Assembly: GCF_001723175.1 (NCBI RefSeq)
Contig: NC_064650.1
Location: 1,240,001 to 1,304,000 of the forward strand
Direction of reading: 5' to 3'
DNA length: 64,000 nt
From: Penicillium oxalicum
Taxonomy: Eukaryota > Ascomycota > Eurotiomycetes > Eurotiales > Aspergillaceae
In this document: positions 10,686-40,641 of the stretch, piece by piece
Layout of the letters: each line of letters begins with the position of its first letter
How positions within the stretch are numbered: the stretch's first letter is position 1
The notes under the pieces: generated by a model
The model's database searches: none
Told to the model about the DNA's origin: nothing
What the model saw: the letters and a program-made list of their open reading frames with translations, nothing else
Translations under genes and position numbers: made by a program

Positions 10686-11261
10686 ATGTCTCGTCATTCT
10701 TCATTCTCTGTCCAAGAGAAAAGTGCGGTTGAGGAGATAGTCGGGTACAGATTTGAAAATGAAGGGTATCTTTTACGCGCCCTCACCGCGAAAGGATGCG
10801 AGTTCGCCCCTCATGGGACGAACGACCGACTGGCAGTGCCCGGTGCGACCGTCCTAAATCTCGTCATAGTGGACACGGCTCACGATACCGGTCTGGGGAA
10901 AGGTATGCATCTTGTCATCGCATGAGGTGGACGATCCTGTGTGTCATCCAGCCTGCCCGATACTGATGATGTTCGGATAGAGCTGATGGACCGTGAACGC
11001 CAAAAATGGGCGTCCAAGTCATTCATCGCAAGGCAGGGATTCGCCCGAGGGCTTGACAATTATTTGCGTATTTCTCAGTCTTGCCAGGGTCACTGTTCCA
11101 GTGATCAAATGGCTACCGCAGTGGAAGCGCTCATCGCAGCAATATGGCTCGACAGCGGCAAGAAGCTGGAGACTGTCTGCGCTTCGGCTCAGCGGATGGG
11201 AATTCCACTTGCTGACAGAAATCCGGATCTAACCCAGCGCTTAGACGCCCTGGAATACTAG
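10686..11261 (+). CDS. Small RNase III-domain-like protein, probably catalytically inactive
   Basis: Two exons, 10686..10902 and 10981..11261, 165 residues. The donor is GTATGC, the branch-like TACTGATG lies about 20 nt before the acceptor, and the join restores one frame. The protein follows the RNase III domain pattern: VEEIVGYRFENEGYLLRAL (about 15-33), the signature region NDRLAVPGATVLNLV (46-60) and TAVEALIAAIWLDSGKKLE (118-136). Family enzymes use an ERLEFLGDAVL signature and a D..E pair in the last motif. Here the first Glu is Asp47, the Asp of GD is Ala54 and the later Asp is Thr118, while Glu121 remains. There is no double-stranded-RNA-binding domain. It is likely a pseudoenzyme or structural RNase III fold. 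Function unknown; relation to the fold is moderately secure. Confidence 0.68.
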
Positions 11262-12218: not shown

Positions 12219-15200
12219 TCAAAAGCTGTCCGGTTGGGAGGATCCTCGATCCTCGTGCACAAAACAAAACCCTCCATAACCCATCAACGTAAAAGGTGCC
12301 CAAAAAAAGGGACTCGTCCAATCCAGCTGGTCAAGTACCATGCGTAACGTGAGAATCAAATACTCCGCTTCGGGCACAAAGTCGGCTGCCGAAAATCCAT
12401 TCTGTTCCCTTTGGGACCAATTCTCCATTATTTCGTCCAAAAGTTCACCCGCACTCCGCTCATTGAGCTTAAATACCTCGATTTGGGCCATTTGCAGAAG
12501 CTCTGCAATGGGCATATGCGGACTCGCTTTGAGATGGCGATAGAATAGTGTCATGATCAACATGGAGCCAAAGTCACTCACTTTCCAAAGTGAGCCGATA
12601 TATGCCTGGCAGCCGGTACTCAAGACGACATGGGAGAATCCAAGGACTTCGCTGGTGAAGGTGGCTTTGCCGAGACCACTGAGACAGGCCGCAAAAACCA
12701 GTAGATGAACATTGCTGTGAATGGCGGACATGTCGATGACTCGGAACTGGTCTGCTTCGCCAATCGAAATGGATGATAGGAGAGGTTGACGATGATTGAG
12801 GTTTCCGTGCGTTCCAACGTGCAAGATCAAGGAGTTGCCTTGAAGATGTTTGCGAAACTCATCCCGAGTCATGTGAGATGCCTCGATTGGTGTTGTTCCG
12901 AAGATGCGCGCAATCTTCACGGCCTCGATCCCTGCCATGTAGAGGCTGTCTTCTTTGGATTCGTGGTTCTGGTTTGAATTCATATCCTCGACGGGCGACT
13001 TGGCAATTACGGAAATCGTTGGGGTTTGTGAGACTGACTTCCGCTGTGCAAGGTGATGAAGGACTGTAAGGCTTGGGATTTGCGAGACTCCTGCATGCAA
13101 GATGAGTGGTTGCTCATCGAAAGGAAGACAAGCGAATGGGAAAGCCGTCAAAGGATCGGATACGGAGAAAATAACGTGCTTTCTTGCTCGGAGAATATCT
13201 TCAAAGGGCTCCAGCAATATGGCAGAAATCTGCCTGGTCAGTTCACTGAGCCTTTCTTTTCGGCTTTCTTCTTCTGGGCCAGCATATCCAGTCAAGACTT
13301 GCAAGATCTGCATCACTTGCATGGCCAGTCGCCGCATGGCGGCCGAATTGGTGGTTCCCTGATGTGTGCGCTGAATTCCGTCGGATGTAATCGCAAATGA
13401 AACACATCCACGGGGCGTGAATGTTGTCTCGATCACGAGTTCAGTCAAGCCGATGCTCTGAAAGAGAAATTTGGGTTCCGTGAGGGAATCGGCTTTCTCG
13501 ATAAAAGCCGTTGTATGGGTCAACTTCCCTCCCTGCTCGAGGTCTTCAAGGTCCTTGCGCAACTGAGTTACCTCAGCATGCTGTTCCGAACTCAGTCTAG
13601 ATTCAGCAAGTAATGACCTCAACAGACGCCTCTTGTAAATCGCCTCTGAAAGGAGTGCGATATTGCCATGGCCATCGCTTTTGAACCCAAACCTGGCCTG
13701 TGTCTGTAGAGAATCAAGTAAACTCCGTGCTCGGCTCATTTCGATAAAGAGTAGTGCATGTTCAGCCCACGAAATGTTGTCAAAATGCCCATGGTCGAAG
13801 CCCAGCAGGATGTCAAGGGGTGCCTCGTTTTGCTGCCACCGGAGGCACAAGCGTGCAAGGTTCACATACACGTCAGGCACCCATCCCCTATTCGAACTAC
13901 CTATTCTTGCATCAAGATCATAGGTTTGCATGCGACGGGTTTCTAATATTCGACGAGCCTCGAGCAGCTTTGCAAAGCTAATCTCGGGCTGTTCATTGCG
14001 CATGATTTGCCCGAAGCTGCTGAGCCGATGAGCATGACTCATTGCGTCATCATCCATGTCGTCGAAAAACCCCGGCTGAATTTCGATAATGATATCGATA
14101 AACCGCCTGGACCGTTCTCGGTCACCTGCGAAGACCGCAAAGGTGATAGCGTTTTGGGCCAGCGAGGCAAAGAATTCCTTCACACCAACGCCCTTTCGCA
14201 GTGCACCCAATTGGCCACCGAAAACCTCCTCGTCACTGATCGAGTCAAAAATCTCGCGAGCCTTGCTAGCGTCCCCAATAATTTGGCAGGCCAGAATACG
14301 ATAAAGATCTCTGGAATAGCTTTGCTCCAAGGTCGTTGTATCGTCTATGAAACGACGAAAGCTCTTCTCGGCTTCGATGACATCCCCTTCTTCCAACAGT
14401 CGACGAAAAGTGACCTCGGCCGAAGAATATCTAACTGTGGCGGCGGTCTGAGTCAGATGCTTTTGCCACATGCCTTTGATTAGGGCTTCAGACAATGGAA
14501 GCATATCGTGAGTGATTTGAATGATATCGCCGGTCTCTAGTTGCTTGCGGAATGCAATAAAGCTTTCATCATGCTCGAGCCAATGAGAGTATTTAGCACA
14601 CCATTCATCGAATCTCTCGAGATCTTCACTATATCGAAAAATGTCGACCACCTCGCTGTCAAGGGTATTCAGTATCTGGAATTTTCCTGTTGACAAGACG
14701 GTGCGGTCTATGTTGCCCACAGGAGTATCTGGAATTGATTCGAGCAGGCGATTGACCCATTCGACGACTCCATCGACTTTGGAGAGTGCCTCCTCAATGA
14801 GGATACGAGATGCATTGGCGTTGAACATGCCATGTTGTGCATGGGCTCGACACACTAGTGATTGAAGTAGCGGGACCATATCTCCGTGAGCCTCAAAAAT
14901 TGTATTTGCACACTCCCATGCAAGAATAGCGTTATCCAAATTGGAGAATTTGTACCACTCTTGATAGGCGAATCTAGAGATGATCATTCCTAGGCAATGC
15001 GCCATCACCTCGTTCTGCGCTTTGACACTCCAATCTGCGATTGATAGGGACATCACCTTGGCTCTGTCCGCACTCCCTTTCGTGATACCCAAAAGGACAA
15101 GATGAGTCCTAGCCAATGCCACGTTTGCTTCGTCTTTACCGAAAAGGGCTAGAGCCTCTTGTAACTTGAGCTCGGCCTCGGTCAGAACAGCGCAACGCTT

Positions 15201-16253
15201 TCCGTCTTGAAGCCGCTCATGACGAGCTTGATCATGAAGGAGACAACCCTGCCGCAAAAGTACGGCAGCTTGGCCACGACGGCATCCTGATCGTTGGAAG
15301 AGCTGTTGAGCCGACTCGTAGAGATTATGAACGACTGAATCATAGGTGTGGCTTAAGCAAGACTCGACAGGGCCCCACAGGACATCACTCATGGTTGCGG
15401 TAGTGGGATCGGTAATGATCATGTTCAGCGTCAAGGGGCTGGCAAATGGAGGACTTAATCTGCTATCGGCTTCCATGATTTTGGCGTTGGCCATTCCGAC
15501 AAAGTCTTCAAAGAGCTCACATCGTCGATAAAGCTCTTGCAGGAGACTCTCTGCCGCAGGGCTCTGACAGGCAAGATGTATCTCAACAATCAGTCGGAAA
15601 AGATACGTGCCTATTCCTGTCAGACCTTGCGAGTCCGCCACCTCGCGAAAGTTGCCCAAATACTGGCAATGCTGCGTGACCTCAGCACGCAAATTCTCTC
15701 TTGAGGCCTCTGTTGGACCTTTAGGACTGAGTGGGTGGTATGTGTATGCTAGGTTTCTTATCAAGAATGGAACCCCCATTACGGCGCTCAGCATCAAAGA
15801 GAATGATTGATCTTGGGGTAGACTGCATGGCGCAAAGCGAGTGGAGCTCTCCAAAAAACTGCTTGTGATTTGAGCAGGTGTCACGACGTTTCCTAGCATC
15901 GACACGTCGACTGGTTTCCCATTTTCGTGATAGAATCGAAGAAGCGGAGGGAAACGACGAGTATAATCATTGAGCGCCTTGTAGTTCGCATACCGCAGGC
16001 CCCATTCCTTGGGTAGTTGCCCAAGAAGCGCTTCCAACTTCGCAAGACTCTCATAGGCATCGGCTGGCCGACCTCTGAGTGATTCGAACACCATAGAGCA
16101 TCGCAGGTACTCGGCGTATGTTTCCAGATCCGTTGGTGAGGATGCATCGGGCCGTGTTTGGCGAAGATAATCCTCGGCCGCGTCTAGGTCCCCACGATAC
16201 TCTTCTGCAAAGAGCGACCGGCCGCATAGACCGAGGAAATAATTAAAGTCCAT
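12219..16253 (-). CDS. TPR-CHAT protein: large caspase-like (CHAT) protease with helical repeat N-terminus
   Basis: Single-exon gene of 1344 residues, starting at the ATG at 16253. Residues about 1-850 are helix-rich with tetratricopeptide-like repeats (for example EEYRGDLDAAEDYLRQTRPD and RARSLLDSLQTQARF). The C-terminal third is a CHAT domain (caspase HetF-associated with TPRs, clan CD, related to caspases and separase). The predicted catalytic dyad is visible: His1149 in ILHVGTHG and Cys1190 in LVFAACLSGLG. Typical later CHAT motifs follow, with GSLWKVSD (about 1220) and PFFWAPFTLMGYGG at the end. No NB-ARC or NACHT nucleotide-binding domain is seen. It is divergently arranged with a gasdermin-like gene 492 bp away. 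Family knowledge says fungal gasdermins are often paired with such proteases, so cleavage of that neighbour is the likely role (inference). Confidence 0.88.
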   Translation of the reverse strand: MDFNYFLGLCGRSLFAEEYRGDLDAAEDYLRQTRPDASSPTDLETYAEYLRCSMVFESLRGRPADAYESLAKLEALLGQLPKEWGLRYANYKALNDYTRRFPPLLRFYHENGKPVDVSMLGNVVTPAQITSSFLESSTRFAPCSLPQDQSFSLMLSAVMGVPFLIRNLAYTYHPLSPKGPTEASRENLRAEVTQHCQYLGNFREVADSQGLTGIGTYLFRLIVEIHLACQSPAAESLLQELYRRCELFEDFVGMANAKIMEADSRLSPPFASPLTLNMIITDPTTATMSDVLWGPVESCLSHTYDSVVHNLYESAQQLFQRSGCRRGQAAVLLRQGCLLHDQARHERLQDGKRCAVLTEAELKLQEALALFGKDEANVALARTHLVLLGITKGSADRAKVMSLSIADWSVKAQNEVMAHCLGMIISRFAYQEWYKFSNLDNAILAWECANTIFEAHGDMVPLLQSLVCRAHAQHGMFNANASRILIEEALSKVDGVVEWVNRLLESIPDTPVGNIDRTVLSTGKFQILNTLDSEVVDIFRYSEDLERFDEWCAKYSHWLEHDESFIAFRKQLETGDIIQITHDMLPLSEALIKGMWQKHLTQTAATVRYSSAEVTFRRLLEEGDVIEAEKSFRRFIDDTTTLEQSYSRDLYRILACQIIGDASKAREIFDSISDEEVFGGQLGALRKGVGVKEFFASLAQNAITFAVFAGDRERSRRFIDIIIEIQPGFFDDMDDDAMSHAHRLSSFGQIMRNEQPEISFAKLLEARRILETRRMQTYDLDARIGSSNRGWVPDVYVNLARLCLRWQQNEAPLDILLGFDHGHFDNISWAEHALLFIEMSRARSLLDSLQTQARFGFKSDGHGNIALLSEAIYKRRLLRSLLAESRLSSEQHAEVTQLRKDLEDLEQGGKLTHTTAFIEKADSLTEPKFLFQSIGLTELVIETTFTPRGCVSFAITSDGIQRTHQGTTNSAAMRRLAMQVMQILQVLTGYAGPEEESRKERLSELTRQISAILLEPFEDILRARKHVIFSVSDPLTAFPFACLPFDEQPLILHAGVSQIPSLTVLHHLAQRKSVSQTPTISVIAKSPVEDMNSNQNHESKEDSLYMAGIEAVKIARIFGTTPIEASHMTRDEFRKHLQGNSLILHVGTHGNLNHRQPLLSSISIGEADQFRVIDMSAIHSNVHLLVFAACLSGLGKATFTSEVLGFSHVVLSTGCQAYIGSLWKVSDFGSMLIMTLFYRHLKASPHMPIAELLQMAQIEVFKLNERSAGELLDEIMENWSQREQNGFSAADFVPEAEYLILTLRMVLDQLDWTSPFFWAPFTLMGYGGFCFVHEDRGSSQPDSF

Positions 16254-16745
16254 TCCTGTGCTCCTCGTAATGAAGCCGCCAGCTAGACTCGATGAGCCTC
16301 CAGTTCAGCTGTAGTCTATGTCGAAGTACTGGGGTCTCGTATCTTTCACGGCGGCACCATGTGGAGCTGTCCCACGCATCTTATAAGTGTGGTGGACCTC
16401 AGCTTGGCCCGGCAGCTCCGAGGAGAGTATAGTAGTAGTTCGTCTATCCTTACCCGTTTGGATCTTCAGCAGGCGATGACTGCAGGGGTTGTGCCCCGCT
16501 GAAGGGAGCAGAGTACGCAACCAAAACGCACGGAGAAGCCCGTAGACGGACCCCTCTCGTGGCGCACGTGTCCAGCTCGGACCCATGCTGACATTTCAAG
16601 CATCGGCTCTTCCTTTCAGCTAAGCTTCTCTTGGTGATTTCCAATCTAATAAATTCGTCAGTAAACATTTCTGGAACTCCCCGCCTTGGCAGGTCATTGC
16701 CCTTACAGCCTCTCGGATCACTAGCGTTTGTGAAAAGCAGAGAAA
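16254..16745. promoter_or_regulatory. Shared divergent promoter of the CHAT protease and gasdermin-like genes
   Basis: 492 bp between the two start codons of head-to-head genes, with no coding frame of its own. A TATA-like TTATAAG occurs at 16381-16387, about 130 bp from the protease ATG. The arrangement would permit co-regulation. No specific operator is identifiable. Confidence 0.5.
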
Positions 16746-17861
16746 ATGGGTGCTGGCAATGACGACTCGTCTTTCTTTCTCTATGGTGTCGGGGAGCGGC
16801 CCGAGGCATTAACCTTGGGTTCGTTGGTGTTGGAGAAATACTGGCAACCAATAATTGCTCGTCACTATACCCACGATCCGCTCAGGTATGAACCTCGCTC
16901 AGAGTTAGGGGCAGTCAGTTATGTGGTGTCACTGGCCAAGTGAGGCTAAGATTTTGAATAGCAGCGAAGAATTGCAAAAGCATGCATATACCACCAATGC
17001 GCAAAATATCGTTTTCCATGGATCGTCGCGTCTCTCGCCGGGAGTCGCTGTTGATGGTGCAGACATTGTCAACCTTGGCCTGGCATTCAACAGAGATCAG
17101 GATCGAATTGTGATCGCAGAAAAAGGGACTCGCATGATTCTCAAGGAGTATGTCAATGCCTTATCCTTTACTCGCCTTGCTTTTCAGGCAGTTTCGGAGA
17201 TGATTGCTAAATTACAGTGGACAGTCCTGAGTTGTTCCTGGAATCCCAGGTATTGCCAAATCCCCAGGCACAGCATAAACTCAAACTTTGGCTGTCTGCA
17301 GCGAACAGCTCGTTCATGCTCAATTTGAAATTCGCTCGTCGGCCCAAGGTGTGGCTGCTGACCGGGGTCTATGTCCTGGAGCAGACTCGAACCATGGTGT
17401 CGAGAGCAAAATCAACAGACATCTCCGCAGGCATCTCATCTGCCTTGATTGGAGCAGCTTCTGGGGTACCCGTTGGTGGTTCGGTTAATCTCGGTAATGG
17501 ATCATCATGGGAGATGGCCATGGAAGTCGCCGAGCCACACGTGTGGGCCGCTCAGTTTCGAATGCTCGACGCTCGATTTATAAAAATGGCTAAGGGGGGT
17601 CTGGAAGCGACCAAGCTACCTATGACGATTGGTCTTTATCGAGATGTCATGTCCGTGAGCATGCAACGCAGTGGGAGAACAGTACTTGAGGGTGCTGCTC
17701 TTCAGGACTCGGCACAGCTAGCATTGAAGAGCGAGCAGGGCAGCACCCATGAAGAGGCATCTGCCGAGGAGCAAGCAAGCGACGAGCTGCTGGAATACGA
17801 GAAACGGCTGGAGCAGGTAATTCGCCTTCTCGAGATTGCTCCAAAGAATCTCTTACAGTAA
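16746..17861 (+). CDS. Gasdermin-like pore-forming protein (fungal RCD-1/HET-Q1 type), putative
   Basis: Three-exon model 16746..16885, 16962..17147, 17225..17861, 320 residues; all junctions are GT..AG and keep frame. The first acceptor is a TAGCAG tandem, so one Ser may vary. The strand-rich core includes QNIVFHGSSR (61-70), DRIVIAEKGTRMIL (94-107), RRPKVWLLTGVYVLEQTRT (147-165), a Gly/Ser/Ala-rich hairpin (about 172-201) and HVWAAQFRML (214-223). This strand, glycine-rich hairpin, strand order resembles the gasdermin N-terminal pore domain. A short tail (about 281-320) is acidic and then amphipathic helical (ELLEYEKRLEQVIRLLEIAP), as expected for a small inhibitory C-terminus removed by proteolysis. 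Its head-to-head CHAT protease neighbour supports this call. Sequence similarity alone is weak, so the fold assignment needs structural comparison. Confidence 0.62.
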
Positions 17862-38248: not shown

Positions 38249-40641
38249 CTACTGGAGCTGCTCATCGCCAAACTTCTTGCTGTAAAGTCCGAGGGCTCGA
38301 ATCGGCCAGTAGAACTTGTAATTAGGGTAGGAGATCATGCTTGGAAAAAAAAATAAGAGTCAGATTTCAAGCTCATCAGACATCAAAAAGGGAAACCTCA
38401 AGGGAGACATACCAGGATTGATTGAAAACTCCTTCGATAGACTCTTGCAACCACTCGCCGTTGCGTTGTTGACGTGACATGAGCAATTTTATGCCGCGTT
38501 GCAACGGCTCCTTGTGCGGGTAGTCAGCCTCCATGAGAGCAAGACACGCCCAAGCTGTTTGCACCACCTGGGATTTCTCATGTTGGACGTAGACATGCTT
38601 CTCGCTACTGAGGTAAGACTCGCCCCACCCGCCATCCTCCTTCTGCTTGGAGATCAGGAATTCACAGCCCCGACGAGAGTTATCGCTGGTCGCGTAAGTC
38701 TCGCCGATACTCGCCAGACTCTCCAAAGCGAACATGGCAGCATAGGTGAAGCAGATGCCCCATGACCCATACCAACTGCCGTCGACACGCTGAGCACGCT
38801 TGATGTAGGCAACGGCCTTCTTCTTGGCAGCCCGAATCTCATCCGCGCGGTAATCCGGGTAGAACTTGCTGAAGAGGGAAAAAGCAGTGACGGATGCAGT
38901 GGTGCACTCTGGGTAGTCATAGCCGATCATGATACCACCAAACACCTCGGCCGCATTCAGCCACTCGATTTTAGACGAGCCCCGGGTCGTCTCGTACTCG
39001 GTGAAGCCACCGGTTGGGTTCTGCATCAAGAGGAGGCAGTCGACGCTGTCCTTCAAACGATCCAGAGAAATCAACTCGGGGAAATTGTGCATCCTCTGGA
39101 GCTGGATCGTGGATCGTAGGCCCTCGGCGGTGCAATCGCTGACGGTATAGCCTTGGGTCTTGTTGCTAAAGGGCCAGGCACCCTTTCGGTGTTGGCGATA
39201 GCACTTCTCTTGGTCCGGCACATTCTCTCGCAGTTGGTGGTCGTCGATGAATTCCAGTGCTTTGAGCAACATCGGCCGCCACTTGGGATCGTCGGCGAAC
39301 CCAGCCACTGAAATAGCTTGCGTGGCAAAAGTGGTATCCCAGACCTGAACTCCGTTAGTGCCGTTAGCCAGCATACCCTCATCCTTCATCCACATGTAAT
39401 CATTCAACCGCTCCCGGTGTCGACGGACTGAGTAGCTGTCGGGACCTTCATGAATGAAGCATGCAATCATGTTTAGAGGATTGCTGACGGGTCCCAATCC
39501 CGCATAGTCAGTGTTCTCGTCTTCCATCCGGATCAGTTCCCAGGTCCAGTCCTCCGCACGCTTGCTGATGGCGTTGATACGGAGGAACGGATTCCACACG
39601 CGGACAAGCAGTTCATTGAGACCGTTCAGAAGCATGGTTTTGGGGTAGTAGTTGTCCGCGGCGTGAATAGAATTGCGGTGCTGTGCGAAATTGATCGAGT
39701 CATACGGCTGAGTGTACAATTCCTCTCGAATTTGCCTGGTCAGATCATCCAGGGGATGGGACCATTTCTTGGACCAGATGTAGGAGAGCGGGAGAAAGAC
39801 CTGGCGAATGTGAATCCACCATCGCCAAGGGGCAAAAGGAACCCAGTCAGGGAGGAGCCTAGGTGGGTAGATTCATTAGAGCATGTTACCGGTCCGGCAA
39901 TTACAGACGGACGTACCAGATCTCAGGAGGCACAGGGTTCACTCCCTCCCAGCTCATCACGCCCAAAATGCTTAGCCAAGCCTTGGCCCAGTGCGGACCG
40001 TATATGGCACCTCCAAACTTGTGCAGAAGGCCACGGGCTTTGATCATTCGAGGATCATCTTCACCCACACCGACCAGACGCAGAGCCACGTAGTTCATGG
40101 CGGTGCCAAAAACCGAGCTGTGGGCTTCGATATGCAATCCCCACCCGCCATCTTCCGGGTTCTGACGGGCAAATAGATACCGCTTGATCTCGGTCGCATA
40201 CTCGGGAAGAATAGGGGTCTTGGTCACATACCAGGTGATCAAGATACCTGGCAGGAGGAACATCGGACCGCCATACTCACAGCCCCAGTTCCCTGGCCCG
40301 AGTTGCAGATGTGAGAAAAAGGAAAGACCGTTCTCAGCAGCTTGGCGCGGTGTTTTGGCCTCTGGTAGCTCTGGAAGACCCTGGACAATGAACCCTTAGT
40401 CGAGAGTCATATTGATCCATGATTGTATGAGACTCACAGTTGGTAATCCAAGATTGTACTTGTCTGCAATTGTCTGTGGCCAAGCCTCATTTTCCTCATC
40501 TGATTCTAAATACTGCCATGTCTGGCGACCAGCATCATTGACCAATCGCCAACGAGAGTAGTCAGTCTTGAGATCTCCATTGCTGTCTGGTTTGAGATGG
40601 CCCTGAGCAGAGCTTCTCCAAGGTCCAATGTGTGAAGCCAT
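38249..40641 (-). CDS. erg7: Oxidosqualene cyclase, lanosterol synthase type
   Basis: Four exons, complement(38249..38339, 38413..39858, 39917..40380, 40438..40641), 734 residues, the normal length. It cyclises 2,3-oxidosqualene to lanosterol in ergosterol synthesis at the ER/lipid particle. The catalytic acid motif DCTAE is at 464-468. QW repeats are visible (EDGGWGLHIEAHS, GGFTEYE, DGSWYGSWGICFTYA, EDGGWGESY). Splicing of the last intron gives FNQSCMISYPNYKFYWPI, close to the NKSCAIS motif that I recall distinguishes lanosterol synthase from protostadienol synthase, so lanosterol is the likely product. No secondary-metabolism genes flank it, which fits a primary-metabolism role. Some Eurotiales carry several cyclase paralogues, so this need not be the only copy. 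Confidence 0.92.

Follow-up and report, generated by a model that had tools for sequence, protein, structure and literature searches.

A TPR-CHAT protease gene and a divergently transcribed gasdermin-like gene of Penicillium oxalicum: a probable cell-death module with a likely link to Aspergillus fumigatus hetB

In a 64 kb stretch of the Penicillium oxalicum genome (30.8 Mb, 17 contigs), here called the window, a TPR-CHAT protease gene and a gasdermin-like gene lie head to head. We propose with good confidence that they constitute a two-gene, pyroptosis-like cell-death module, in which a solenoid would act as sensor, the CHAT domain would cleave the gasdermin, the gasdermin would form a pore and the trigger would likely be non-self. 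Activation of a gasdermin typically consists in the proteolytic loss of its inhibitory C-terminal part, upon which the N-terminal domain forms a pore. Both genes of the pair are intact, and searching the genome yielded one copy per gene, counts to be taken as lower bounds; because of these single copies, together with 81 homologues listed for the gasdermin-like protein and at least 77 for the CHAT protein (E ≤ 1e-20), the observation of the pair goes beyond chance. Its most useful part, absent from the earlier note on this DNA, is a link to hetB: through its family, the pair, with a TPR-CHAT protease for which a good structural model was obtained, is tied to a locus shown to govern incompatibility between A. 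fumigatus strains. What caspases and gasdermins do in pyroptosis has its counterpart in the protease-gasdermin pairs of fungi, and most of their triggers are unknown according to the part of a review available to us (PMC12881547).

The protease gene is a single exon of 1344 codons (12219–16253, minus strand), and the earlier note's reading of it holds: the frame is open throughout and P0082, 99% identical, has equal length. The CHAT domain (Pfam PF12770, caspase/separase clan; residues about 1005–1325, 12279–13241, minus strand) scores 117 bits against a cut-off of 24. The proposed His/Cys dyad is intact, with His1149 in the motif HVGTHG (12807–12809, minus strand) and Cys1190 in FAACLSG (12684–12686, minus strand), two residues that we take to be the catalytic pair. 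Neither is substituted in the 77 listed homologues: the His is found in 76, with one gap, and the Cys in 75, with two gaps. The predicted structure, built for residues 150–1344 (pLDDT 83.9), contains the protease fold and, N-terminal to it, the helices announced by the earlier note, so that the TPR-CHAT architecture is predicted with high confidence. The helical-repeat, TPR-like part covers modelled residues 150–921 (13491–15806, minus strand), in a model starting after residue 149; Pfam TPR families exceeded their cut-off in none of the eight sequences tried.

The same protease fold is also attached to a scaffold of helical repeats in the type III-E CRISPR protease Csx29/TPR-CHAT (Craspase) and in separase, with 10–18% identity in the structural alignments, but those proteins have other partners and triggers (a guide-RNA complex and cohesin, according to the entry titles). 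Among the matches listed, the closest named relative of the CHAT protein is from P. diatomitis (68%), and the only clearly distant named one, from Paramyrothecium, is 25% identical. The CHAT tree comprises 51 of the 77 listed homologues plus the window protein. A divergent clade, 42–44% identical to the window protein, holds P0148 and P0145–P0147, from P. longicatenatum and unnamed samples. The PADLOC model BovA (PDLC03832) weakly matches the CHAT core (E 5.4e-05; residues about 1128–1232, 12558–12872, minus strand), which may hint at kinship of this core with a bacterial defence protein.

The gasdermin-like gene starts on the other side of an intergenic region of 492 bp (16254–16745), bracketed by the two start codons and equal in length to the distance given earlier; both promoters presumably lie within it. 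Splice choices were enumerated and then compared with the residue spacing of homologues at the first junction. The preferred model has three exons on the plus strand, at 16746–16885, 16962–17147 and 17225–17861, the last including the stop codon, and encodes the 320 residues previously claimed. Intron donors are GTATGA and GTATGT, and the preferred first acceptor ends at 16961. The orthologue P0001 aligns from residue 1, with 90, 84 and 75% identity over the stretches of exons 1, 2 and 3, respectively, and the spacing at the first junction is that of 51 of the 52 homologues tested; a 319-residue model using another acceptor was rejected on this same count. That version, which differs by one residue, served as query for the Pfam scan, the homologue search, the single-sequence PDB search and the tree.

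The closest named gasdermin-like relative is from Penicillium ucsense (81%). P0080, used as a more distant query against the window genome, retrieved nothing beyond the window gene. As for a second gasdermin, contig C7 gave a single weak hit (E 0.02), in a frame that is presumably coatomer-alpha-like, and this hit was attributed to chance. Among the homologues, P0055 (478 aa, Penicillium occitanis) carries in addition a DUF4267 domain (PF14087), either a fusion or a merger at gene prediction.

The assignment of this protein to the gasdermins comes from structure prediction. A template-free AF2 model of P0001, 81% identical to the window protein, was of moderate confidence (pLDDT 58.6, pTM 0.56). 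Searched with Foldseek, it returned gasdermin entries at ranks 1 to 16, and at ranks 1 to 8 upon re-alignment. The top matches span fungal, bacterial, Trichoplax and mammalian gasdermins, with RCD-1 listed first; the best Z was 7.9, in the middling range, and the first rows were tied. We thus assign a gasdermin fold to the 320-residue protein with moderate confidence, and the fold check proposed in the earlier note came out in favour of the gasdermin reading. The strands and the Gly/Ser-rich stretch claimed there are present, strands being defined by DSSP on the P0001 model: the hydrophobic stretch (residues about 172–202, 17412–17504, plus strand) lies between model strands 151–170 and 202–225 and may be a putative membrane-inserting hairpin.

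The protein ends in a short C-terminal region (17724–17858, plus strand) made of a linker, residues about 276–292, and an amphipathic helix, residues about 293–320, as delimited from conservation, the model helix at 293–311 and the hydrophobic moment. With conservation computed over 52 of the 58 rows of alignment A2, the six partial or odd-length rows (P0047, P0055, P0058, P0059, P0067 and P0076) being left out, the linker is weakly conserved and the helix conserved. The highest hydrophobic moments of the protein fall within residues 292–319, in agreement with the amphipathic helix described before. We regard this helix as a putative inhibitory tail, with a putative cleavage site within the linker or immediately ahead of it.

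The family's gasdermins escape standard annotation. Pfam gave no gasdermin match for the 320-residue protein; for P0001, NCBIfam gave two matches at chance level and PADLOC none. Searches of phage records gave no match. A solved gasdermin was likewise not retrieved among PDB sequences with phmmer (single sequence) or hmmsearch (58-row and 35-row profiles), searches which distant relatives can escape.

In the module that we propose, the TPR-like solenoid would sense a trigger and keep the CHAT cysteine protease inactive until then. Once triggered, the CHAT domain would cut the neighbouring gasdermin in or near the linker, with loss of the short amphipathic helix that would keep the gasdermin monomeric until its removal. 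The freed N-terminal domain would insert beta hairpins into the plasma membrane and assemble an oligomeric pore, leading to death of the hyphal compartment. Recognition of non-self once hyphae have fused would be the likeliest trigger, given that the family very probably includes the CHAT allele of A. fumigatus hetB. For this pair we infer the cleavage, tail inhibition, pore, killing and trigger; the gasdermin-like fold, at its moderate confidence, and the linkage of the two genes in relatives support the earlier interpretation as a protease-gasdermin cell-death module.

This scheme has precedents in the accessible parts of two reviews (PMC12881547, PMC10197012), which describe protease removal of the C-terminal inhibitory part and pore formation by the N-terminal domain, and with which the background given in the earlier note (HET-Q1, RCD-1 and protease neighbours including CHAT types) agrees. 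Clustering with a protease gene is stated for more than 80% of the gasdermin genes of fungi (PMC12881547, in part), and for about 19% a CHAT gene is no more than 10 kb away (PMC10197012, in part); the window displays this trait with its CHAT gene 492 bp away. Podospora anserina offers a precedent: there, a CHAT protease with TPRs was found to activate the gasdermin clustered with it (Clave et al. 2022, via the available part of PMC12881547). The organisation of the window pair would accommodate each step of this scheme. The two parts and their clustering are the same here, whereas the named relatives of the present family are, among the matches listed, mostly from Penicillium, Aspergillus and Talaromyces. 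The het-Q1/het-Q2 system of P. anserina also places a gasdermin with a short cleavable tail under protease control, both tail function and protease control being putative in our case. However, HET-Q2 is a subtilisin-like serine protease and its gene and het-Q1 are idiomorphs of one locus rather than neighbours (PMC12881547, in part).

Linkage in related genomes was another check put forward in the earlier note. Adjacency was read from the locus tags within homologue names, 54 gasdermin-like and 38 CHAT entries being tagged. The tags are consecutive in 19 of the 23 same-prefix pairs, from 23 different genomes, which denotes adjacency, not orientation, and which does not refute the module. Moreover, a longest contig of equal size is listed for both proteins in 31 pairs, including 21 of these 23. 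Among the listed names, 31 of the 54 tagged gasdermins and 15 of the 38 tagged CHAT proteins have no same-prefix partner; the names represent one entry per 90% cluster, and unpaired tags are not evidence of absence.

The four non-consecutive pairs, all counted in the total, are from A. heteromorphus, A. lentulus, P. longicatenatum and A. fischeri. For A. heteromorphus, the longest contig listed is of equal size for both proteins and the tags (BO70DRAFT) are probably non-positional. A. lentulus IFM60648 combines a gasdermin of class I with a CHAT protein of class II (classes described below) at distant tags. The P. longicatenatum CHAT protein belongs to the separate divergent clade and the listed gasdermin is not adjacent. 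In A. fischeri the gasdermin (GB937_001757) and the CHAT protein (GB937_001771) are 14 tags apart, with longest contigs of equal size, a gap suggesting that adjacency is not essential.

The gasdermin tree (52 of the 81 homologues plus the window protein) separates two gasdermin classes in the relatives of A. fumigatus, a group that we take to be Aspergillus section Fumigati. Each class occurs in A. lentulus, A. turcosus and A. udagawae, and between-class identity within one of these species is 64–68%; the two A. lentulus class II gasdermins, P0051 and P0059, are mutually 71% identical. Members of the two-class modules are the gasdermins P0015, P0021, P0033, P0042, P0048, P0050, P0051 and P0059 and the CHAT proteins P0138, P0149 and P0154. 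The two classes are more likely separate loci of patchy presence, because A. lentulus IFM60648 holds the mixed combination mentioned above at distant tags; trans-species alleles are less likely for the same reason. The within-species gasdermin pairs compared in Penicillium share 93.5–98.7% identity (P. malachiteum, P. herquei, P. verhagenii and P. brasilianum).

At the hetB locus of A. fumigatus two idiomorphs occur: the first encodes a CHAT protein of 1,327 residues, the second a protein of 149 residues in which no domain is predicted. Either one expressed in the opposite background gives an incompatibility phenotype, and among 46 assemblies from A. fumigatus and three relatives, 22 carried the CHAT allele (PMC11138114, available in part). 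The CHAT family of the window contains an A. fumigatus member, P0143, of exactly 1327 residues and 44% identical to the window protein. From species, domain and exact length, P0143 is very probably the HetB CHAT allele. It is sister, in the CHAT tree, to A. fischeri GB937_001771, which lies 14 tags from a gasdermin of the window family. A. fumigatus itself has a gasdermin of this family, P0034 (312 aa, 58% identical). Unlike the window, where both genes stand side by side, hetB holds either the CHAT gene or the other idiomorph, and no gasdermin is named in the part of PMC11138114 available to us.

The chances appear to us evenly divided on the following proposal: in Aspergillus, the family gasdermin would be the executioner of HetB incompatibility, the HetB CHAT allele would act as sensor protease, triggered by the 149-residue product of the other idiomorph, and Penicillium would keep protease and gasdermin side by side as one unit. 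If so, a CHAT-based incompatibility would have its protease, its gasdermin substrate and its allelic trigger all named. The HetB authors considered the protease target and the involvement of a gasdermin still to be verified, an important next step (PMC11138114, in part). The present pair offers a named candidate target, found in many Penicillium and Aspergillus species, for the allorecognition protease HetB. A literature search, outside which most subscription journals lie, returned no paper naming the family gasdermin as HetB target and none naming protease, gasdermin substrate and allelic trigger of CHAT-based incompatibility together; among the papers listed, hetB appeared only in the 2024 paper PMC11138114.

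Three other readings can be weighed against a cleavage-activated allorecognition module. The one closest to it alters the trigger and not the mechanism: the pair would be a general switch for death in response to stress or pathogens, or a regulated secretion pore, and A. fumigatus hetB a later co-option. We give this reading somewhat less than an even chance. Members do occur across many Penicillium and Aspergillus species, and reviews, in their accessible parts, propose that fungal allorecognition genes arose by exaptation of death pathways already in place and that secretion roles are possible (PMC12881547, PMC10197012); yet HetB, alone among probable members in having a genetic role, acts in incompatibility (PMC11138114, in part). 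We find it quite improbable that the gasdermin is lethal without being a CHAT substrate, the two genes sharing regulation or a sensor and gasdermin variants pairing in the manner of RCD-1 without cleavage. In favour of this reading, Neurospora crassa RCD-1 (8jyx, 8jyy, 8jyz), first listed in both fold comparisons with the P0001 model, is activated when two allelic variants meet, without cleavage, unlike the module that we propose (PMC12881547, in part). The 14-tag gap in A. fischeri points the same way, as do the A. lentulus gasdermins P0015, P0051 and P0059, which at 64–71% mutual identity indicate that divergent gasdermin variants exist within one species. However, the 93.5–98.7% identity of the within-species Penicillium pairs argues against this reading, and a conserved helix behind a variable linker is what is expected of a cleavable tail. 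Clustering with proteases is moreover the rule for fungal gasdermins, and the Podospora TPR-CHAT protease activates its gasdermin (PMC12881547, in part).

The third reading is that the 320-residue protein is a MACPF/cholesterol-dependent-cytolysin-like pore former or an unrelated beta protein, its gasdermin assignment being an artefact of a weak model. We hold it to be very improbable: the uninterrupted series of gasdermin entries at the top of both rankings came from a template-free model, and in its size and its short C-terminal tail the protein resembles microbial gasdermins.

The escape of these gasdermins from annotation also shows in P. herquei. A 2026 study of this species searched for gasdermin-like proteins via the HeLo domain and reported no executor, divergent gasdermins being possibly missed (PMC13311144, available in part). 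Two P. herquei genomes, other than the strain of that study, encode a family gasdermin (P0026, P0044), and in strain N7540 the CHAT gene adjoins it, with consecutive tags.

Around the pair, 16 of the 20 other window frames scanned match Pfam families (E ≤ 0.001), mostly of housekeeping types, and no third gene resembling a part of the unit was seen among these 20. A ribonuclease III-like frame (10926–11261, plus strand), slightly under the Pfam cut-off, lies next to the CHAT gene on its 3′ side. Further away, a frame at 38376–39872 (minus strand) carries squalene-hopene cyclase-type domains and probably encodes a sterol cyclase.
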